DNA of 64,000 bases from Radicibacter daui (lineage in GTDB: Bacteria > Pseudomonadota > Alphaproteobacteria > Radicibacterales > Radicibacteraceae): NCBI GenBank assembly GCA_030657355.1, contig CP131056.1, positions 3,616,501-3,680,500 on the forward strand. The letters run 5' to 3'. The first letter of the stretch is position 1, and every line of letters begins with the position of its first letter. Of this stretch, positions 33,923 to 57,132 are shown piece by piece. A model generated the notes under the pieces. It saw only the letters and a program-made list of their open reading frames with translations, was not told where the DNA came from and made no database searches. The position numbers and the translations under genes are program-made.

Positions 33923-36900
33923 CCGCCCGTCCCGCCGCCCAGCGATTTCAGGATGTCGTTGATGAATTGCTGCGTGCTCGGCTGCTGCTGACGTGCCTTT
34001 TCAGCGGCCGCTTTTTCTGCCGCAGCCTTGTCTGCAGCTGCCTTGTCGGCTGCGGCTTTCTCCGCCGCCGCTTTCTCGGCCGCGGCCTTTTCTGCGGCGG
34101 CCTTCTCGGCGGCCGCTTTCTCCGCAGCAGCCTTCTCTGCCGCGGCCTGGGCGGCAGCCGCATCCGCCGCTGCCTTTTCTGCTGCCGCTTTTTCGGCGGC
34201 GGCCTTTTCCGCTGCTGCCTGCTCCGCCGCGGCTTTCTCCGCAGCAGCCTTCTCGGCAGCCGCTTTGTCTGCCGCCGCCTTCTCCGCCGCTGCACGGGCG
34301 GCGGCATCGGCATTGGCGCGGCTCACGATGTCGGAGACATCGACCGCCGGCAGCAGATTGTCGAGCGGGCCGGAAACCCCGATCCGGGCCGGCGGCACCG
34401 CGGCATTGGTGATGCTGAACGGCCCGGCCAGCACCACCTGCCATTGTGGCAGGTTGACCGTGCCGGTGAGCTTGCCGCTGCCGGCAGGCAGGCTGAGCGC
34501 TACATCGTCAAGGCGGGCAACCCCGCCCTCAAGCGTGAAGCTGCCCTTGAAGCTGGAGAAGGGCGTCTTGCCGCCGGCCTGAGCCGCCTTGGCCAGTGCC
34601 TCCGGCCCGCCGGGATTGCCGATCTTCACCGCCGCTGCGGCCACGGCATTCAGGTCGATGCCGGCGAGCTGGCCGCTGGTCAGGGCGAAATCACCGCTGC
34701 CGGTGAGGGAGGAGATCAGCGCATTTCGGCTTGCCCCGCTGGCGCTCACATCGAAGGAATAATCGAGCAGACCTTCACCCACCGGGGTGATCTTGCCATC
34801 CTCCAGCACCGCGCCGAGACCGCCGCCCTTGAGCGTCAGCGCTGCTTTTACCTCACCGCCCTGCCCGCCCGGCGCTGCCGTCACCCGGCCGGAGCCGGAG
34901 AGTTTGCCGCGGAAGGCATCGCCATTCAGCGAGGACACGGTCAGCGCGCCATCTTCCAGCGCCGCCTCCACCGTGGCATTGCCAAGATCGAATGCGCCCC
35001 AGGTAAGGCCGCGCAGCTTGAGTTTGAAGGTGCCGTCGATCGCGTGCAGCAGGGACCAGTCGAGCGCGGCGTCCGACCATGCGGCGCTGCCGCCGGGCAG
35101 CGGCAAGGCGGCGACCCTGGGCGGGCCGGCGAGGAAACGGTCGACCAGAATATCGCCGGTCTGCAGATCGGCAGTTACCACCGGCCGGTCCTTGTTGGTG
35201 TCGACCGCAAGGTTGCCGACGACGGGAATGCCGCCCACCTGCCCCTGGATGCCGGAGAGCTGCAACTTGCCGTCGCCGCCCTTGCCCTCGGCATAAAGAT
35301 CGAGGTCCCCCAGATCGTCCGGCAGGCGGGTTGCCGGCAGCAGCAATGCCAGCGCATTGGCAAAGGAGGCCTGCTTGACCCGGGCCTTGAAGGCATAGGC
35401 GGGGCGTGAGGAGAGATTGCTCACGCTGCCGGCGGCCTCGGCGGAAAAACCGCCGCCATGGCCGGAAAGGCCAAGCTGCAGGGCATCGTGCTCACCCGCC
35501 ACCGTCAGCTTCGCATCCACATCGGCAAAAGCCCGCGACTTGGCGCCGGGATCGAAACCAAAGCTGCGCAGCAACGGCGCGGCATCGGCCGCCTTGACGG
35601 CAAGGGTGAGATCGAGCCCGGAAAGCGGCTTCAGCCCCCCGACCCGGCCCGCCAGCGTCAGCGCACTGCCGGAAACATCGGACGCAGAGAAATCGCGCAG
35701 CGCCAGAGCGCCCTGGCTCAGTGTGGCATCCAGATGCACGCCGTCATAATTGACGCCGCCCGCTGCCAGCTCGCCGATGCGGGCGGAGACATTCATGTCG
35801 GCAAGGCCGGCAAGATCGCCAAGGCGCTGCGGCAGTACCAGCAGGGCACTGCCCTTCGCCTCCCCGGCAGGAACCGGAAAATAGGCATCGAGATTGATCC
35901 GGTCGGCATCAAGGCGCGCGCCGATACCGGGGCGCCCGCCCTCGCCGGCCGCGGCGGCATAGGTGAGCGCGCCGGTGAGCCGTCCGGTATCGAGGCCGAG
36001 ATTGATGTCGCCGGCGGTGAAGTGATCCGGCGTGCCGGTGAGGTGTGTGGAAAGATCAAGCTTGCGCAGCCGGTCGGCCGGCACTGCGCCCGCATCGTAA
36101 CCAAGCCAGGTGAGCGTGGTGCGCAGATCATCGGCGTTGGCGGTCAGCTGCAAATCGCCCTGAAGCCCGTCCCCGCCGGGCTTCACAGTACCCGCCAGCT
36201 GGAACTGGGCGCCGCCCGGCAGCAGCGCGCTTGCCCGCTCAACGGCGAGCGAGCCATCAGCGGCGAAGGAGGCGCCGAAATGCACATCGCGCATCGGCGC
36301 ATCGCGCCACTCCGCCGCTTCCACGGAAAGATCGAGGCTGCCGGTCAGGCCGGAGGGCAGCGGCACCCCGCTCTTCCAGTCCAGCCAGGGCGCCACCTCC
36401 ACCCGGCTCAGCGCCAGCGCCACATCAAGGCGCGGCACATCGCCGAAACCGTAGGAAACTGCACCGGTCGCCCGCATGGCATCGCCGAGGCTGAACTCGA
36501 CATTGTTGGTTTCGATACCGCTGGCGGTCACCGCCAGCTGGCCGCGGCCCTGAAAGTTTCCGGCAACCGGCGCCGGCAGATCCTCTGCGCCGGTAAGCGC
36601 CAGCAGATCGGCAAGGCTGCCGCCCTGGCCGCGCAGTTCGCCCTGCAGCAGCGTATCGCCCTTGGGGAAAAACAGGCCCTGATAGGAAAAGTCGCCGGCG
36701 ATATTGCCCTGCTCATCCTTCACCTGCGTGCGCAGCCGGATGGGCCAGACGCCGGTGGTGGCGCGGTGGGCGGCGCCCATATCCACCAGCAGGTCCAGCG
36801 GATGCGGGGTCACGCCATAGGCCGTCATGGTGCCCTTGGCGGTCAGCGGCCCCTCCAGCGACTGGGCCGCGATACGCATGTTGATCTTTTCCAGCCGGCG

Positions 36901-47853: not shown

Positions 47854-49608
47854 ATGGTAAGCACCACCACAAAGAATACTCAAAAAGATGGATTTTCTTT
47901 CTTTTTTGATGCGATTTTAGAACTCCTTAGTGATGATGTTTTTGATAGTTATCGAGTGCCAGCCATGTCGATGCCTTTCCGCTTCAATGAAGCGGCAATG
48001 GTCTCCACAACCGCGTCAAAAAATATCGCTGATCGGAAAATCCTGATACCCATTATAGAAGAAATTGAATACTTTTCAAAAGAAGACTTTTTACTCAAAG
48101 ACGATGATTTTTTTAAATCCTCGATAGAAAATTTAAAGGAAATACATTCTAAAGGAGATCTAAGATTACTTAACAGCATGAGCATGGTGCTGTTTAAGTA
48201 TTGTAGAGATTTCTATAATAATAATTTATTTAAGAAAATAAAATACACCTGTCTAGATGGAAAGAATAAATATAACGCCTATGATTTAGCAAAGTCCCTA
48301 TGTTCATACCTAACAAACTGTGGTTATTCTAGGAGGTACATAATAGAATGCGCAAAGGAATCAAAAAATAATATAGATTTATTTGAAAAAATGTTAAATT
48401 TTGAACGAAACAATTACACCGTGATAATCCCATGCGAATCATTAGTTGCCACGATACTCAACGAATTAGGTGAAGATAAATACAAAATAATAGAAAGAGA
48501 TCAAATTTGCGACGACCAAATAAAATACATGGAATTTAAAACATCTCATGATAAAGAAATTAAATACGTACAAATCAACGTAAACAATCAAAACGATCAA
48601 TACAGGGCTTATTCTACTGCACAGAAGATGGTAAATTCTATTATATCGATAACACGCACAGCACATATCGATGTGGAATTTGACATTGGGTCAAAAATTA
48701 TCGTAAAAAAACAAGAAGAAAAAGAAAAAATTAGCGAAAATATATACAAAATAGATGAAGAAATGTCGCCCATAAAAAGAAGAAAGACAAAAAATGAAAT
48801 AGAAAATATTAGAAAAGCAATTTCCAGAAAATACGATTTACTTCAAAATGAAGAAACCAATAAAAGTGTTTATGTCCACTTTCAAAGAAGTATATTTCTT
48901 TTTTTAAACGCCTATGAAGCAAAATTTCCAGAAACCCAAATAATAAACTTATGGTCTGCCTTTGAGGCCTTATTACCAGAACCGACAACAAAGCCAAGGA
49001 TTTCTTTTTTTCTCTCTCTTTGCAAGCCTGCCATAGGTTTACACTATCTGGAACGGCGTATTTCTGCGGCCTATGATGACGTAAGGACCATCATGGGAAA
49101 CCAACTGCCGGCAACTCTTGGAGCGACAACAGACGATGAAGCACTTGAGCGATTTGTTCGATTGTTAACTGGAGAGCACCAAGATAAAGAAAAAATAAAT
49201 GCGATATGCGACTACATGTCAAAAGTAGATCTAAAAATGAATTCGCTCTGGAAGCTTTCAGAAGTCCTAAGAAGCCCAAAACAATCTTTAGAAAGAATAG
49301 AAACTCACGAAAAGATCGTTTCTTGGCAGTTAAACAGAATATACAGATTAAGAAATAGCCTCTCCCATGCCGGATTTTCTTGGCCGTTCATCGAAGTGGC
49401 AACAATGAATATGCAAGAATATTATGATAACACGGTAGAAGAAATTCACTTATTTTCCCAAAGGCGGGATCTATCAATGATGGAGATATTCAACACAATT
49501 TCCTCTTACAACACTGCGCGAAAATCAATGCTCAAAAGAAACGAAAGTGTTTCAAGAGTCATTGACATGAATTACCTACATTTACATAGAAGTATACTCC
49601 CTTCTTAG
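47854..49608 (+). CDS. HEPN-like (Apea-like) domain protein, putative RNase effector of a defence island
   Basis: 584 residues, AT-rich and Lys/Asn/Ile-rich, unlike every neighbour. The C-terminal third looks like an Apea-type HEPN domain: a helix with LWSAFEALLPEP (about 368-380), RISFFLSLCKPAIGLHYLERRI after it, and the motif RLRNSLSHAG with Arg500-x4-His505, the usual RNase active site. The N-terminal 330 residues are mostly helical with no family I recognise; a Lys/Glu-rich hinge sits at about 285-325. HEPN RNases cleave cellular RNA in abortive-infection and toxin systems; no partner (antitoxin, nucleotidyltransferase) is encoded beside it, so sensing and killing may reside in the one chain (inference). 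Confidence 0.7.
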   Translation: MVSTTTKNTQKDGFSFFFDAILELLSDDVFDSYRVPAMSMPFRFNEAAMVSTTASKNIADRKILIPIIEEIEYFSKEDFLLKDDDFFKSSIENLKEIHSKGDLRLLNSMSMVLFKYCRDFYNNNLFKKIKYTCLDGKNKYNAYDLAKSLCSYLTNCGYSRRYIIECAKESKNNIDLFEKMLNFERNNYTVIIPCESLVATILNELGEDKYKIIERDQICDDQIKYMEFKTSHDKEIKYVQINVNNQNDQYRAYSTAQKMVNSIISITRTAHIDVEFDIGSKIIVKKQEEKEKISENIYKIDEEMSPIKRRKTKNEIENIRKAISRKYDLLQNEETNKSVYVHFQRSIFLFLNAYEAKFPETQIINLWSAFEALLPEPTTKPRISFFLSLCKPAIGLHYLERRISAAYDDVRTIMGNQLPATLGATTDDEALERFVRLLTGEHQDKEKINAICDYMSKVDLKMNSLWKLSEVLRSPKQSLERIETHEKIVSWQLNRIYRLRNSLSHAGFSWPFIEVATMNMQEYYDNTVEEIHLFSQRRDLSMMEIFNTISSYNTARKSMLKRNESVSRVIDMNYLHLHRSILPS

Positions 49609-49656: not shown

Positions 49657-49875
49657 TTACGCCTTCCCGTAACCGCCGCCACCCGGCGTTTCCACCGTGA
49701 TGGCTTCGCCGGCGGCCAGTTCCACACGCTCGGTCGAGGCGAGGACCTGGATGGTGCCGTCCTTGCGGCGCACCGAGGTGCGGCCGACGGCGCCGGTTTC
49801 GCCGCCATTGAGGCCGAACGGGGCGACAAGGCGGTGGTTGGCGAGGATGGCAGCCGTCATCGGCTCGAGGAAGCG
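49657..49875 (-). repeat. Direct repeat copy B (3' end of the intact oxoprolinase gene)
   Basis: Same orientation and length as copy A at 47372-47590. Because the insert lies on its 3' side, this copy may have been supplied by the element to restore the reading frame. Confidence 0.88.
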
Positions 49876-52800
49876 TAGCGTTCTCACGGTGCCATCCCCG
49901 CCCTTCCAGCGGCCCCTCCCGCCGGAACCCGAACGCAGGGCAAAACTCTCCAGCAGCACCGGATAGCGCCATTCCAGCACTTCCGGATCGGTGAGGCGGC
50001 TGTTGGTCATGTGCGTGTGCACACCCGACGTGCCGTCAAAGCCGTTGCCGGCACTGTCCACGCCGGCACCGGCGCCGCCGCAGATCGTCTCGTAATACTG
50101 GTAGGTGGCGTTGCCGAAGGTCAGGTTGTTCATGGTGCCCTGCGCCGCGGCCATCACGCCGAGCGCACCATAAAGCGCGTCGGTCACGCACTGGCTGGTC
50201 TCGACATTGCCGGCCACGACCGCCGCCGGGGCAACCGGGCTCAGCATGGAGCCGGCCGGCACGGTGATGCGGATGGGCTTGAGGCAGCCTTCATTCATCG
50301 GGATGCTGTCATCCACCAGCGTGCGGAAGACATACATCACCGCCGCCCGCGTGACCGGACGCGGCGCGTTGAAGTTGTTGTCGAGCTGGGCAGAGGTGCC
50401 GGTGAAATCCACCACCGCCTCGCGCGCCTTCTTGTCCACCGTCACCTTCACGCGGATGACGGCACCATTGTCGAGCGGCCAGTCGAACTGGCCATCGGCA
50501 AGCCGGTCGATGACCCGGCGCACCTGCTCCTCGGCATTGTCCTGCACGTGGCCCATATAGGCCGTCACCACATCGAGGCCGAACTGGCCGACCATGCGGG
50601 CCAGTTCCTGCGCGCCCTTTTCGTTGGCGGCGATCTGGGCCTTAAGGTCACCGATGTTCTGCTCGACATTGCGCGCCGGGTAGGTGCCGCTGGCAAAAAG
50701 CGCCCGCACGGCGGCGTCGCGGAAGCTGCCATCTTCCACCAGCACGAAATTGTCGATCAGCACACCCTCCTCCTCCAGCACCTTTGAGTGCGGGGGCATG
50801 GAGCCGGGGGTGAGGCCGCCGATATCGGCATGGTGGCCGCGCGAGGCAGTGAAGAAGAGCAGCTTTTTGCCCGCCTCGTCGAACACCGGGGTGATAACGG
50901 TGATGTCCGGCAGGTGGGTGCCCCCGTTATAGGGGTCGTTCAGCATATAGACCCAGCCGGGGCGGAAGGTGCCGGCACGCTGGTTAATGAGATGGCGCAC
51001 GCTCTCGCCCATCGAGCCCAGATGCACCGGCATGTGGGGCGCGTTGGCGATCAGGTTGCCTTCGGCATCAAAGAGCGCGCAGGAGAAATCGAGCCGTTCC
51101 TTGATGTTGACGGAATAGGCCGTCTTTTCCAGCGTCAGGCCCATCTGCTCGGCAATGTGCATGAAGAGGTTGTTGAACACCTCCAGCATCACCGGGTCCG
51201 CCTCGGTGCCGATGGCATACTGGCCTTCGCGCGCCTTGTAGCGGGTGAGCACGATGTCGCCGATATCGGTCATCTCGGCGCGCCAGCCCTCTTCCACCAC
51301 GGTGGTGGAGGTCGGCTCGCGCAGGATGGCAGGGCCATCCACCGTCTCGCCGGCCAGCATCTCACCGCGGTCATAAACCTTCCAGCCAAGGCTGGCGGCC
51401 AGCGGGGTCAAGAGGCCCGGGCGATAATGCGGATCGGTGACGGCCACGCCCTGCTCGGAGCGGTGGGACACCTCGACCGACACGCTGTCGATGGCGAGCG
51501 GCTTGTCCGGCAGCACGAAACCATAGAGCTGGCGATGGGCTGCCTCGAAGCGGGCCTTCACTTCCTCAAGCGCGCTGTTTTCCACTTCCAGCGCGGCGTC
51601 GGTGCCCTGGTATTTCAGCAGCAGCTTGCGGCTGACGGCCAGTTCGGCACCGGCAATGCCCTGCTGGGAAAGCTCTGCCCGCGCCTCGGCCTCCAGTTCG
51701 GCAAACACGCTGGCTGCGGCGGCAAGGCCGGTGGCAAGGGGGGCTTCCACCGTCTTCTGGCGCAGGGCGCGGGTGTCGGCCAGACCAATGCCGAGGGCGG
51801 ACAGAACGCCGGCATGCGGGTGCAGATGCACCGTCTTGATGCCAAGCGCATCGGCAACGAGGCAGGCATGCTGGCCGCCCGCGCCGCCGAAGCAGGAAAG
51901 GGCGTAACGCGTCACGTCATAACCGCGCTGCACCGAGATGTGCTTGATGGCGTTCGCCATGTTTTCCACGGCGATCTTCAGGAAACCTTCGGCGATCTCC
52001 TCCGGCGTGCGCTCCACGCCCAGCGACTTCTTCACCTCGGCAGCAAGCTCGGTGAACTTGCGGCGCACCACCTCGGCGTCGAGCGGCAGGTTGCCCTCGG
52101 GACCGAACACGGCGGGGAAGAATTCGGGCTGCAGCTTGCCGAGCATGACGTTGCAGTCGGTCACCGTCAGCGGGCCGCCGCGGCGATAACAGGCCGGGCC
52201 CGGATTGGCACCGGCGCTCTCCGGGCCAACGCGGAACTTGGCGCCGTCGAAGAAGCAGATGGAGCCGCCGCCGGCCGCCACGGTGTGGATCATCATCATC
52301 GGCACGCGCATGCGCACGCCGGCCACTTCGGTTTCGAAGGCGCGCTCATATTCGCCGTCGAAATGCGACACGTCGGTGGAGGTGCCACCCATGTCGAAGC
52401 CGATGAGCTTGCGGAAACCCGCCGCCTCGCCGGTGCGCACCGCACCCACCACGCCGCCGGCCGGGCCGGAGAGGATGGCGCCGCGGCCCTGGAACAGCGC
52501 CGCATCGGTGAGGCCGCCGTTGGACTGCATGAACATGAGCCGGGCATCGTCCGGAATCTCGGCCGCCACCTGGTCCACATACCGGCGCAGAATGGGGGAG
52601 AGATAGGCATCGACCACGGTGGTATCGCCGCGGCCCACCAGCTTCATGAGCGGGCTCACCTCATGGCTGACCGACACCTGGGTAAAGCCGATCTCGCGGG
52701 CAATTTCCGCAAGGCGGGCTTCATGTTCGGTGAAGCGATAGCCATGCATCAGCACGATAGCGCAGGCACGGATACCGTCATCATAGGCAGCCTGAAGGCC

Positions 52801-53274
52801 AGTACGGGCGCTGTCTTCAACCAGCTTCTTTTCCACGGTGCCGTCGGCGCGCACACGCTCGTCGATCTCGACAACGCTGGAATAGACCTGCTCGGGCAGG
52901 ATGATCTGGCGGGCGAAGATATGCGGACGGGCCTGGTAGCCCAGCCGCAGCGCATCGCGGAAGCCTTTGGTGATCGCCAGCACCGTGCGGTCGCCCTTGC
53001 GCTCCAGCAGGGCGTTGGTGGCAACCGTAGTGCCCATCTTCACCGCTTCGACAAGGCCGGTGGGGATCGGCTGGCCGGCCGGCACGCCCAGCAGGTCGCG
53101 GATGCCCTGGATGGCGGCGTCGCGGTAGCGCTCCGGATTTTCCGACAGCATCTTGTGGGTCACAAGGCGGCCGTCCGGCTTGCGGGCGACGATATCGGTA
53201 AAGGTGCCGCCGCGATCGATCCAGAACTGCCACTTGCCGGTGGCGGCGGGATTGGAGGTGCTCGGGGTGGTCAT
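49657..53274 (-). CDS. 5-oxoprolinase/hydantoinase, fused HyuA-HyuB type
   Basis: 1205 residues. The HyuA half (about 1-690) starts [21 protein letters not shown] and has the ATPase motif [16 protein letters not shown]. The HyuB half (about 715-1205) starts [41 protein letters not shown] and ends GGGGYGKA. This fused form hydrolyses 5-oxoproline (or a related lactam or hydantoin) to the open amino acid with ATP. It lies just downstream of a TRAP transporter on the same strand, which probably brings in the substrate. A good AGGAG precedes the ATG. Its last 219 bp are duplicated at 47372-47590. Confidence 0.93.
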
Positions 53275-53360: not shown

Positions 53361-54665
53361 TTAACTGGCTGTCATGGTCAGCGGCAACCAGGTTGCGATG
53401 CCCGGGAAGGCCACCAGCAGGCAGACCATCAGGCAGAGGACGAGGAAGAAGGGAATGGCGGCCCGTGCGATCGAGAAGATGTCACGCCCGGCAAGCCCTT
53501 GCAGGACAAAGAGATTGAAGCCGACAGGCGGGGTGATCTGGCTCATCTCCACCACGATGACGAGATAGATGCCGAACCACATGAGGTCGATGCCTGCAGC
53601 CTGCACCATCGGCAGCACCACGGAGGTGGTGAGCACAACGATGGAGATGCCGTCGAGGAAACAGCCCGCCAGGATGAAGAACAGGGTGAGCGCGAAGATG
53701 AGCGCCACCGGGGCCAGATGCAGCGACTGGATCCAGGCGGCAAGGTCGCTCGGCAGGTTGGTAAAGCCCATCGCGGCGGTCAGGAACGCAGCGCCCACCA
53801 GAATGAAGCCGATCATGCAGGTGGTGCGCGTTGCCCCCATCAGGCTCTCCTTGAAGGAGGCGAAGGAGAGCGAACCGGTGACGAGCGAAAGCAGCAGCGC
53901 GCCGACCACACCGATGGCAGCCGCCTCGGTCGGGGTGGCGATGCCGACATAGATGGAGCCGATGACGGCAACGATGAGGGCGATGACCGGGAAGAGGCGC
54001 GAGCTGGCGCGAACCTTCTCCATGAAGGGCATCGGGGCTTCGGCGGCCGGCATGCGGTGGCGGTTCAGCAGCGACCAGACCATGATGTAGCCCATGAAGA
54101 GGGCGATCAGCACGATCCCCGGCACCACGCCGGCCATGAACAGGCGGGCAATGGAAACATCCGCGCTCACGCCATAGACGATCATGATGAGCGAGGGCGG
54201 GATGAGGAAACCGAGCGTGGCGGAACCTGCCAGAGTGCCCAGCACCATGTCGTCGTCGTAACCGCGCTTGCGCAGTTCCGGCACGGTCATGCGGCCGATG
54301 GTGGCTGCCGTTGCGGCGGAAGAGCCCGAGACGGCGGCGAAGATGCCGCAGCCCAGCACGTTGGCGTGCAGCAGGCGGCCCGGCAGACGGCCGACCCAGG
54401 GGGCAAGGCCGGTGAACATGTCCTGGCTGAGACGGGTGCGGAACAGGATCTCGCCCATCCAGATGAAGAGCGGCAGCGGAGCGAGCGACCAGCTGGCGAT
54501 ACCGTCCCAGACCGCGCCGCCGAAGACGCGGCCGACCGGCAGGCTGGTAAAGCCCTCAAGGGCGACAAGGCCGATTCCGGCGAGCGAGAAGGCGACCCAC
54601 ACGCCGCTGCCGAGCAGCACGACAAGGGTGACGACGACGGCAAGGCCGAGAAATACGAGGCTCAT
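53361..54665 (-). CDS. TRAP transporter large permease (DctM family)
   Basis: 434 residues. Motifs [62 protein letters not shown] and [24 protein letters not shown] are typical of DctM. It starts 3 bp after dctQ and is followed 86 bp later by the oxoprolinase gene. It forms the ion-coupled channel of the second TRAP system in this window. Confidence 0.94.
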
Positions 54666-54668
54666 GGC

Positions 54669-55190
54669 TCAGACCTCACCCGGGACACCGGCTTCATCCG
54701 GCGCACCTTCATAAGGGGCAGCCTCACCGCGAATGACGCTGACAAGGCAATCGAGAAGGCAGATCACGAAGATGGCGGCGCCCAGCACCATGACCATCTG
54801 CGGGATCCAGAGCGGCACGCCCAGCAGGCCCGGCGACAGGCTGTGGCGGGCAATCGACTTCACCGCCATGCCCCACAGATTCCAGGCGAGGAAAGCGGCA
54901 AGGCCGGTTCCGACGGCAAGGCACCAGATCTCGATGCCGCGGTTAAAGCTGGTGGGCAGCGCGCGGATCAGCAGGCTTACCCGGATGTGTCCGCCAGCCC
55001 GGAAAGTGGGGGCGAGTGCCAGGAAGGTTGTGGCCGCTACAAGGTAACCGGAAATTTCAGCGCCCGAGGGCACCACCACGCCGAGGGGGCGCAGTATCGT
55101 TTGCGAGAGGATGACGAGCGCGATGAGCAGGAGCGATATCGCCGCCGCCGCCGCACTCAGGGCATAGAGCCCGTCGAGGATACGTCGCAT
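54669..55190 (-). CDS. TRAP transporter small permease (DctQ family)
   Basis: 173 residues from the ATG at 55190 (MRRILDGLYALSAAAAAISLLLI), which has AAGGTGG upstream; a TTG at 55244 in the same frame is less likely. Four hydrophobic helices are seen, with PSGAEISGYLVAATTFLALAPTFRAGGHIRVSLL, which is typical of DctQ. It is separated from the solute-binding gene by a strong hairpin. Confidence 0.88.
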   Translation of the reverse strand: MRRILDGLYALSAAAAAISLLLIALVILSQTILRPLGVVVPSGAEISGYLVAATTFLALAPTFRAGGHIRVSLLIRALPTSFNRGIEIWCLAVGTGLAAFLAWNLWGMAVKSIARHSLSPGLLGVPLWIPQMVMVLGAAIFVICLLDCLVSVIRGEAAPYEGAPDEAGVPGEV

Positions 55191-55291
55191 GGAAGCCACC
55201 TTGCGCGAGCCGTTGTCGCCATCCCTTTCCTTCAAGTCAGGCAAAGGGTGGGCCGGAAGGCCAGTATGCGGGAGACCAGAGAAAGTGGGGA

Positions 55292-55382: not shown

Positions 55383-56360
55383 TTACTTGGAGTAGGCGTC
55401 GATCACCTGCTTGCCGGCATCGCCTGCCTTGGCCAGCCATTCGCCGGTCATGGTCTTGCCGATATCGGCAAGAGAAGCCTTCAGCGCATCGCTCGGCTCG
55501 GCAACGGCAATGCCGTGGTCGGCGAGCTGCTGGGTGAGCGTGCCCTTGGACTCTTCAGAGGTCTTCCAGCCGCGTTCCTCGGCCTTGGCTGCCGCATCCA
55601 GAACGGCCTTCTGGTCGTCCTTGGACAGGGCGTCGAAAGCCTCCTGGCTCACGAACACCATGTTCTTCGGCACCCAGGCCTGCACGTCGGTGTAGTTCTT
55701 CACGAAGTCCCAGGCCTGGCTGGAAACACCGGTCGCCGGGGAGGTAACCATGGCGTCGACGAGGCCGGTGGCGAAAGCCTGCGGAATGTCCGGGGTCTCG
55801 ATCTGGGCCGGCACGGCCTTCAGCAGCTGGGCAAGGCGTGCGGAAGCGGCGTTATAAGTGCGGAACTTCTTGCCGGCGAGATCTTCGGCCTTGGTCACCG
55901 GGCTCTTGGTGTAGAGGCCCTGCGGCTGCCATGGCACGGCGAAGAGAAGCTTGAGGCCGTCGCCGGCGAGCTTCTGCTCGATCACCGGGCGCGATGCCTT
56001 CCACAGCTTGGCGGCATCGCCATAGGAGGTGGCGAGGAACGGTACGGCATCGACGCCGTAGATCGGGTCTTCGTTCTCCAGCAGCGACATCAGCACTTCG
56101 CCGGCCTGAACGACGCCGTCCTGCACGGATTCCTTAATGGACGGGTGCTTGATGAGCGAGCCGCCGGAATAGACGTTTATGTTGAGGTCGCCCTTGGTCG
56201 CCGCCTTAACGTCGTCGGCAAACTGGCGAATGTTCTGGGTGTGGAAAACGGTGTCGCCGTAGGGCGTGGCCATGCTCCAGTCGGCGGCATGGGCGCCGGT
56301 GACGGCAAGGGTGCAAAGGGCACTACCGGCGGCGAAAGCCGCGATCAACTGCTTACGCAT
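55383..56360 (-). CDS. TRAP transporter solute-binding protein (DctP family)
   Basis: 325 residues. The signal peptide is MRKQLIAAFAAGSALCTLAV with a likely cut after AHA (about 25). The mature part contains DWSMATPYGDTVFHTQNIRQFADDV, YSGGSLIKHPSIKESVQDGVVQAGEVLMSLLENEDPI, and FRTYNAASARLAQLLKAVPAQIETPDIPQAFATGLVDAM, of which the last holds the family's hinge region. It is the first gene of the TRAP-oxoprolinase unit; a repeated 26-bp motif lies about 100 bp upstream. Likely ligands are 5-oxoproline or another cyclic amide acid (inference from the downstream enzyme). Confidence 0.93.
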   Translation of the reverse strand: MRKQLIAAFAAGSALCTLAVTGAHAADWSMATPYGDTVFHTQNIRQFADDVKAATKGDLNINVYSGGSLIKHPSIKESVQDGVVQAGEVLMSLLENEDPIYGVDAVPFLATSYGDAAKLWKASRPVIEQKLAGDGLKLLFAVPWQPQGLYTKSPVTKAEDLAGKKFRTYNAASARLAQLLKAVPAQIETPDIPQAFATGLVDAMVTSPATGVSSQAWDFVKNYTDVQAWVPKNMVFVSQEAFDALSKDDQKAVLDAAAKAEERGWKTSEESKGTLTQQLADHGIAVAEPSDALKASLADIGKTMTGEWLAKAGDAGKQVIDAYSK

Positions 56361-56457: not shown

Positions 56458-56483
56458 TTGTCAACAAATTGTCGATAAAATGT
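56458..56483. promoter_or_regulatory. 26-bp operator candidate upstream of the TRAP genes
   Basis: TTGTCAAC-5 nt-GTCGATAAA-4 nt, matched at 22 of 26 positions by the site at 57107-57132 in front of the MarR-like gene. It consists of two near-tandem TGTC(A/G)A units. An extra inverted repeat TCGATA/TATCGA (56472-56492) overlaps this copy only. Confidence 0.65.
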
Positions 56484-56527
56484 CTCTATCGATGAAAAAG
56501 CCGTTTTCGGGGCCGGAAAACCTCTCC

Positions 56528-57037
56528 CTAAAGTGAGCTTGCCGCTCGAGCCGCCTGGTCGTAATGGCCGGAAAGGGCACGGATGCGCCGCGCCATCGAG
56601 GCCAGATCGTCAAGGCTGATTCCGCCCAGCGCATCCAGCGTCTCGACAAGGCAGGCCTGCCGCACCTCGCGGTAACGCGCACAGGCTTCCTGCCCCTTGG
56701 GGGAGGTGCGATAGGTCACTTCCTTGCCCGAGCGGGTAGACTCCACAAGGCCCATATTCCGCAGCTTTTTCAGCGCGTAATTGACGAGGTGCGTATCCTC
56801 GATATTGAGCGTGAAGCAGATTTCGCTGAGGCGCTTGTCGCGGGCGCGGTGGTTGACATTGTGCAGCACCAGCACTTCCAGCGACGAAAGTTCCGATGTT
56901 CCCGCAGCCGACATGCAGCGTACCATCCAGCGATTGAAGGCGTTGTGGCAGGTGATGAGCGCGAACTCATATTCGCTGAGCCCTTCCGACCCTTCGGCAA
57001 GATGGGCGGAAGAGACGATGGCGGTGCCCTTGGACAT
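56528..57037 (-). CDS. MarR-like winged-helix transcriptional regulator
   Basis: 169 residues. EYEFALITCHNAFNRWMVRCM leads into SSLEVLVLHNVNHRARDKRLSEICFTLNIEDTHLVNYALKKLRNMGLVESTRSGKEVTYRTSPKGQEAC, the winged helix. It is placed between the oxoprolinase-TRAP unit and an unrelated gene. The same 26-bp motif lies upstream of this gene and of dctP, so it likely regulates itself and the transport operon. Confidence 0.88.
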   Translation of the reverse strand: MSKGTAIVSSAHLAEGSEGLSEYEFALITCHNAFNRWMVRCMSAAGTSELSSLEVLVLHNVNHRARDKRLSEICFTLNIEDTHLVNYALKKLRNMGLVESTRSGKEVTYRTSPKGQEACARYREVRQACLVETLDALGGISLDDLASMARRIRALSGHYDQAARAASSL

Positions 57038-57106
57038 GGGTAAACTTCCCTTTTTATCGCTCCGGCGGTCTGCAGAACGGGATCTGGCGGCTTTATGAGC
57101 GAATCA

Positions 57107-57132
57107 TTGTCAACGAAACGTCGATAAATTGT
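57107..57132. promoter_or_regulatory. 26-bp operator candidate upstream of the MarR-like gene
   Basis: TTGTCAAC-5 nt-GTCGATAAA-TTGT, the partner of the site at 56458-56483 in the same orientation and spacing, about 70 bp before the regulator start. On the transcribed strand it includes TTGACA, so binding could block a -35 box. Confidence 0.65.

Follow-up and report, generated by a model that had tools for sequence, protein, structure and literature searches.

In the window, the 64-kb stretch of DNA analysed here, a regulator gene is followed downstream, on the same strand, by dctP, dctQ and dctM and then by a gene for a fused 1205-aa hydantoinase A/B protein. Two closely similar sites flank the regulator gene (Table 1).

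Table 1. Genes and sites around the regulator gene, in window coordinates.
Feature	Position	Strand	Description	Score
Site A	56458-56483		plus-strand sequence TTGTCAACAAATTGTCGATAAAATGT; 97 nt upstream of dctP ATG (56360)	
Site B	57107-57132		plus-strand sequence TTGTCAACGAAACGTCGATAAATTGT; 69 nt upstream of regulator ATG (57037)	
Operator A (predicted)	56458..56478	.	inverted repeat TTGTCAAC-N5-GTCGATAA upstream of dctP	33.1 bits
Operator B (predicted)	57107..57127	.	inverted repeat TTGTCAAC-N5-GTCGATAA upstream of regulator gene	29.4 bits
Weaker overlapping copy	56469..56491	-	11 bp from operator A	20.7 bits
MarR-type regulator	56528..57037	-	169 aa; Pfam HTH_27 (PF13463)	75.6 bits, cut-off 22.2
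dctP	55383..56360	-	TRAP solute receptor, pyroglutamate type; best PDB matches 2pfy, 2pfz	
dctQ	54669..55244	-	TRAP small membrane subunit; PF04290; start codon uncertain, TTG listed	69.9 bits
dctM	53361..54665	-	TRAP large membrane subunit; PF06808; TIGR00786	281.1 bits; 366.8 bits, cut-off 268.45
Fused hydantoinase A/B protein	49657..53274	-	1205 aa; PF05378, PF01968, PF02538 in one chain	

Among solved structures, the window DctP matched 2pfy with an E-value of 5.9e-97 and 2pfz with 1.7e-79, followed by 6wgm (5.3e-62) and a fourth entry at 3.8e-16. According to the accessible parts of the literature, 2pfy and 2pfz are Bordetella pertussis receptors that bind pyroglutamate (PMC5812351, PMC13274462, PMC12344293). 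By sequence, the window DctP is nearest to these receptors and is assigned to the pyroglutamate type through this relationship; DctP-family matches number 18 in its own genome. The fused protein unites hydantoinase A and hydantoinase B in a single chain, as in the eukaryotic type of enzyme, and its best PDB match is to the 1288-aa chain 7hk5, named N-methylhydantoinase, over the full length (E 2.2e-133). No NCBIfam equivalog reached its cut-off with this enzyme, the best models being caprolactamase subunits, far below; PxpA was not found in the window's genome. Judged by the DctP and by the Pxp substitution in relatives described below, the fused enzyme is probably a 5-oxoprolinase. Convergent with its gene, at 47854-49608, lies a 584-aa gene within an island of 30-40% GC in a region of ~60-65% GC; it has no Pfam match over the cut-off and no PADLOC match, and looks recently acquired.

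The regulator displays the winged-helix DNA-binding domain of the MarR group through its HTH_27 profile, with MarR_2 at 22.0 bits (cut-off 27) and no NCBIfam model above cut-off. The broad HTH_27 family occurs at 17 places in the own genome, and a sequence search there returned no second homologue of this regulator at E <= 0.001. A MarR-type fold is predicted by the AlphaFold2 model of the monomer (43 sequences, pLDDT 88.6, pTM 0.81), which has the winged helix and the long terminal helices that this fold requires. The structural matches listed (Foldseek, VIA) are mainly MarR-family proteins, with a best Z of 14.6 and an rmsd of 2.2 over 136 residues, in lists that cover only the families listed, so that other families may match too. 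The regulator is 8-20% identical to the listed matches, and a sequence search of solved structures with it gave nothing significant (best E 0.41).

Sites A and B have the same orientation and are identical at 22/26 positions, differing at the other four. The sequence-only reading of this DNA had described them in these terms, one before dctP and one before the regulator gene, and direct comparison confirmed it; its MarR-like regulator holds by profile, predicted fold and structural matches, and its TRAP-oxoprolinase unit by the Pfam and PDB matches of the TRAP proteins and the fused oxoprolinase-type protein. The unit of 26 bp has now been refined to an imperfect inverted repeat of ~21-23 bp (56458-56478 and 57107-57127). 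With a matrix trained on other loci only, both operators scored on the minus strand, operator A at 56458-56480 and operator B at 57107-57129, and away from both sites no place in the 64 kb scored above 13.7 bits. The weaker copy overlapping operator A is possibly a second dimer site.

An IUPAC consensus of the two sites, allowing up to three mismatches, found A and B as its sole matches in the window (100 dinucleotide shuffles gave 0) and also in the 5.06-Mb genome (reversed control 0), in a test that is post hoc because the consensus was drawn from sites A and B themselves. The dyad pattern YRTYRAC-N5-RTYGAYRW likewise has exact genome matches only at A and B, on both strands at each because the site is nearly symmetric, and its reversed control gave zero. 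A one-mismatch pattern gave a further match in the own genome and outside the window, at C1:6007-6026 between genes (17.1 bits; scored as C1:6007-6029, L229:1508-1530), with oxidoreductase-like and ABC-transporter-like genes nearby, by eye; this match is unexplained and may be due to chance. Direct 26-mer pairs with at least 22 matches and at most 1.5 kb apart number 21 in the window, and five mono-shuffles gave 0. Of the 20 pairs listed, 17 lie inside one tandem-repeat array (33992-34290), and the remaining three are the A/B pair, 18685/18763 and 53744/54530. Identity at 22/26 is thus by itself not unique in the window, and it is the relatives that decide the question. The array itself (33994-34290) is built from 15-bp units in tandem, which encode a long AAEKAAAEKAAA-type tail close to the C-terminal end of a protein of 1199 aa that looks AsmA-like.

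Relatives were collected by a scan for the regulator, and the best 80 of 241 loci (53-63% identity) were analysed. They are mostly from Alphaproteobacteria, with four betaproteobacterial loci (L047, L048, L054, L055) and one gammaproteobacterial bin (L100). Among these best 80 of 241, 66 carry the oxoprolinase gene, 57 carry dctM and 52 both; at least one oxoprolinase, TRAP or Pxp gene is present at 73, in widely varying order, the seven loci with none being L039 (at a contig end), L048, L061, L084, L090, L096 and L102. Motif discovery by EM on 53 intergenic regions, taken at junctions of divergent module genes and excluding the window, returned the motif AATCGTTGACGATTTATCGACGA (26.9 bits), with the same 23-bp element in 53/53 regions, each of which has a copy of at least 22 bits. 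This element is an imperfect inverted repeat of about TTRTCRAC-N5-GTYGAYAA. Its edges are sharp: over 52 distinct sites, conservation stays within ~23 bp, and the columns beyond carry 0.62 bit at most, the majority less than 0.3. Its half-sites are nearly symmetric, with a matrix correlation of 0.64 about the central dyad and 0.845 within the half-site; when each of the 72 best sites is read on its higher-scoring strand, the strict core RTYRAC-N5-RTYGAY fits 41 of them, and the dyad is therefore imperfect.

A site of at least 16 bits was found at 72 of the best 80 of 241 loci, usually one each, and nearly always upstream of the oxoprolinase gene, dctP, dctQ or the regulator gene. The junctions concerned differ, between oxoprolinase and regulator, oxoprolinase and dctP, oxoprolinase and dctQ, or dctP and regulator. 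Outside the training set, 19/27 loci have a site, mostly upstream of the oxoprolinase gene, the TRAP operon or the regulator gene. The 80 loci hold 175 matrix positions of at least 16 bits, overlapping registers included. Twenty column-permuted matrices gave 1.55 such positions on average and never more than 7, and mono-shuffled loci gave 1. Since the loci are related, these counts are not independent events. The betaproteobacterial L047, L048, L054 and L055 score 29.8, 16.2, 24.1 and 28.7 bits; with about one chance match expected per Mb at 16 bits, the weakest sites, such as that of L048, are insecure. TRAP, oxoprolinase or Pxp genes accompany the site at 68/72 loci, and the exceptions, L048, L084, L096 and L102, imply either that this class of regulator serves other genes too or that the linkage is looser. 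Eight of the 80 loci have no site of at least 16 bits: contigs are cut near the regulator or operon in L036, L039 and L049, sub-threshold sites are present in L042 (15.7 bits), L043 (15.3) and L100 (15.0), and L061 and L090 have none.

In a second set, 190 genomes of the class including that of the window, 83 have a close oxoprolinase and 22 any regulator match; this set overlaps the best 80 loci (L070, G188), and the two are not independent. Where the regulator (at least 50% identity) lies alongside the oxoprolinase, a site of at least 18 bits is present in 12/13 fetched loci, G027 being the sole exception; these 13 leave out G050, G055 and G153, with no fused enzyme nearby. In genomes without a close regulator homologue, 0/59 oxoprolinase upstream regions reach 13 bits (best 12.8). 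These 59 regions came as two batches of 22 and 37, with G095 counted as lacking the regulator despite a 29%-identity match and L164 offering only 327 bp upstream. The element thus tracks the regulator and not the enzyme. In agreement with this, no site was found at the oxoprolinase in G050 and G055, where the regulator is elsewhere in the genome; L159 and L163, from genomes that hold it elsewhere, are without a site and outside the 59. Also outside the 59, scores are below 13 bits for L196 (a second copy in a regulator-positive genome) and for L203 and L224, in whose genomes the regulator has only distant homologues. Incomplete or split oxoprolinase rows (G004, G043, G083, G098, G121, G136) were left out of the counts and G161 was taken only in part. 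As a presence/absence marker, the one-mismatch pattern was rejected as too noisy, since it matches 76 of the 190 genomes against ~32 for the reversed control, and only positions relative to the oxoprolinase were used before matrix scans took its place. A side case is G014 (L021:1247-1968), in which a regulator homologue of 36-38% identity has a 30.5-bit site upstream and the oxoprolinase lies ~120 kb away; operator specificity may outlast regulator divergence.

Conservation of the ~23-bp inverted repeat goes together with the regulator family, in Alpha- as in Betaproteobacteria, and the repeat is not found where the regulator is absent. The motif that the earlier reading proposed to look for upstream of orthologous TRAP and oxoprolinase genes is conserved, in the 53/53 training regions and at 19/27 held-out loci, and its proposal that the regulator controls uptake and ring-opening gains strong comparative support from this conservation and from the absence of the element upstream of oxoprolinase genes lacking a close regulator homologue.

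In some relatives the fused enzyme is replaced. In L033, L042, L043, L052 and L071, the regulator and TRAP genes are accompanied by PxpB and PxpC; L043 and L071 have PxpA as well. The regulator of G050 adjoins PxpB, PxpC and PxpA, and PxpABC is thus complete in three of these six Pxp-type relatives. PxpA exceeded its subfamily cut-off in both cases tested and PxpB did so in G050 only; PxpC passed the cut-off of the broader TIGR00724 in G050 and L052 and fell under the PxpC equivalog cut-off in 3/3 tested, the Pxp pieces of L043 and L052 being scored as alignment ranges and not as full genes. The fused oxoprolinase is absent from the DNA examined at all six loci; that of G050 lies 1.2 Mb away and has no site. 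The rhodobacterial L042, L043 and L071 share the two-site plan of the window, with weaker sites (10.8-19.2 bits) that lie before the regulator gene and in the interval from dctP to pxpB. L033, also rhodobacterial, has a clear site between dctP and pxpB only. The occurrence of the fused enzyme and of the unrelated PxpABC beside one regulator points to 5-oxoproline as the signal and is the best available evidence for it.

Other homologues have different neighbours. In G055 (L178:9365-16792), the gene of a homologue of 51% identity is closely followed by a 26.6-bit site, which in turn precedes genes for a beta-eliminating lyase, a split hydantoinase A/B and an X-Pro dipeptidyl peptidase; the operator class may there serve a different peptide or hydantoin pathway. 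In L102 (6578-8361), a 26.8-bit site lies between the regulator homologue and the gene of a family-5 (peptide-type) ABC binding protein, and no TRAP, oxoprolinase or Pxp gene was found nearby. Homologues in L061 (4387-6507) and L048 (2513-6501) lie near an FAD-dependent oxidoreductase gene, of the DAO family by Pfam in L061 and alike by eye in L048, and the L061 binding-protein gene is 68% identical to one near the G050 regulator.

Very probably, the MarR-type regulator uses sites A and B, which flank its gene, as its operators; this degree of probability applies to the whole link of regulator, operator and target. That their similarity reflects promoter homology or chance is scarcely credible: the lack of uniqueness of a 22/26 identity in the window and the resemblance of TTGACA in the minus-strand site to a -35 box would fit it, but the element recurs in differently arranged junctions, has sharp edges and is absent without the regulator. 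A chance repeat was ruled out by the shuffles, genome uniqueness, the de novo motif, the matrix scores and the sharp edges, and general promoter homology by the varied gene order and, again, the edges. Ownership of the element by another transcription factor, inherited together with the module, is also quite unlikely. The linkage of element and regulator is correlational, which would be compatible with such a factor; yet the element tracks the regulator gene and precedes that gene itself. A pseudo-palindromic dyad stands close to the regulator's own gene in the window and in relatives, with half-sites about one helix turn apart, the spacing at which a MarR dimer is expected to bind.

With the MarR-type regulator as owner of the sites, its homodimer would bind each of them, controlling its own gene from site B and the dctP-dctQ-dctM-oxoprolinase operon from site A, most likely by repressing both promoters. 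5-Oxoproline (pyroglutamate) would enter via the TRAP transporter and release the regulator; with repression relieved in this way, uptake and ATP-dependent ring-opening to glutamate would be induced together. From gene context, 5-oxoproline is probably the signal. A neighbouring metabolite, such as glutamate, glutamine, a pyroglutamyl peptide or a hydantoin, seems improbable as effector, even if some homologues have other neighbours, namely a split hydantoinase A/B together with an X-Pro dipeptidyl peptidase, an ABC transporter of the peptide type or a DAO-family oxidoreductase, and the window enzyme is drawn to caprolactamase and N-methylhydantoinase names; two unrelated types of 5-oxoprolinase and a pyroglutamate-type DctP converge on 5-oxoproline instead. 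The promoter hexamer scan found no sigma-70-like promoter near sites A and B, and the sign of control is therefore unreadable from position. Most characterised catabolic MarR regulators repress, and repression appears likely here as well. A regulator acting as an activator or in a dual manner, whose 5-oxoproline-bound form switches the TRAP-oxoprolinase operon on, would suit the position of site A, 97 nt upstream of dctP with no promoter hexamers found there, as an upstream activator site; this is nonetheless doubtful, as the habit of the family and the analogous 5-oxoproline sensor PxpR, a repressor according to the accessible part of PMC13274462, both count against it.

PxpR of Corynebacterium glutamicum, described in the same part of that paper as a GntR-family repressor of pxpTABC that binds 5-oxoproline (PMC13274462), is by analogy the nearest characterised counterpart of the window regulator. 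Both are local regulators of an operon for taking up 5-oxoproline and opening its ring, and in both systems the inverted-repeat operator precedes the transporter gene. They differ in that the PxpR system combines a GntR regulator, the secondary transporter PxpT and PxpABC, whereas the window has a MarR-type regulator, a TRAP transporter and a fused oxoprolinase, and in that regulation was measured for PxpR and is predicted here. Among solved structures, those closest to the window DctP are of B. pertussis DctP6 and DctP7 (2PFZ/2PFY), near whose genes a eukaryotic-type oxoprolinase gene is located (PMC13274462, accessible part). The accessible text describes no regulator at that locus, to which the window adds a regulator and predicted operators. 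MarR, SlyA, CouR and HpaR, among the structural hits, have in common with the window regulator the predicted fold and a dyad operator next to the own gene, and none of the ligands that the listed MarR-family structure titles name is 5-oxoproline. As stated in the accessible part of the 2026 paper, bacterial regulation of 5-oxoproline metabolism had, to its authors' knowledge, been unstudied before (PMC13274462), and the part available of PMC4809877 names MarR regulators and hydantoinase/oxoprolinase only in separate table rows. We found no description of a MarR-type or other regulator of oxoprolinase, TRAP or pyroglutamate genes in the literature searched, RegPrecise and most subscription papers being outside the search. 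The circuit is of a familiar kind, a local MarR-type regulon, for which no experimental description was found.

Altogether, these data incline us to the view that pyroglutamate uptake in Alpha- and Betaproteobacteria is controlled by a widespread 5-oxoproline sensor of the MarR type, which has an operator class to itself and works with either of the two unrelated types of oxoprolinase, and that more distant paralogues sharing this operator possibly act at other peptide or hydantoin modules. 5-Oxoproline forms spontaneously from glutamate and glutamine. For the TRAP/oxoprolinase route, the finding supplies a regulator gene, a precise predicted operator and a regulon prediction, as well as a candidate biosensor for 5-oxoproline.
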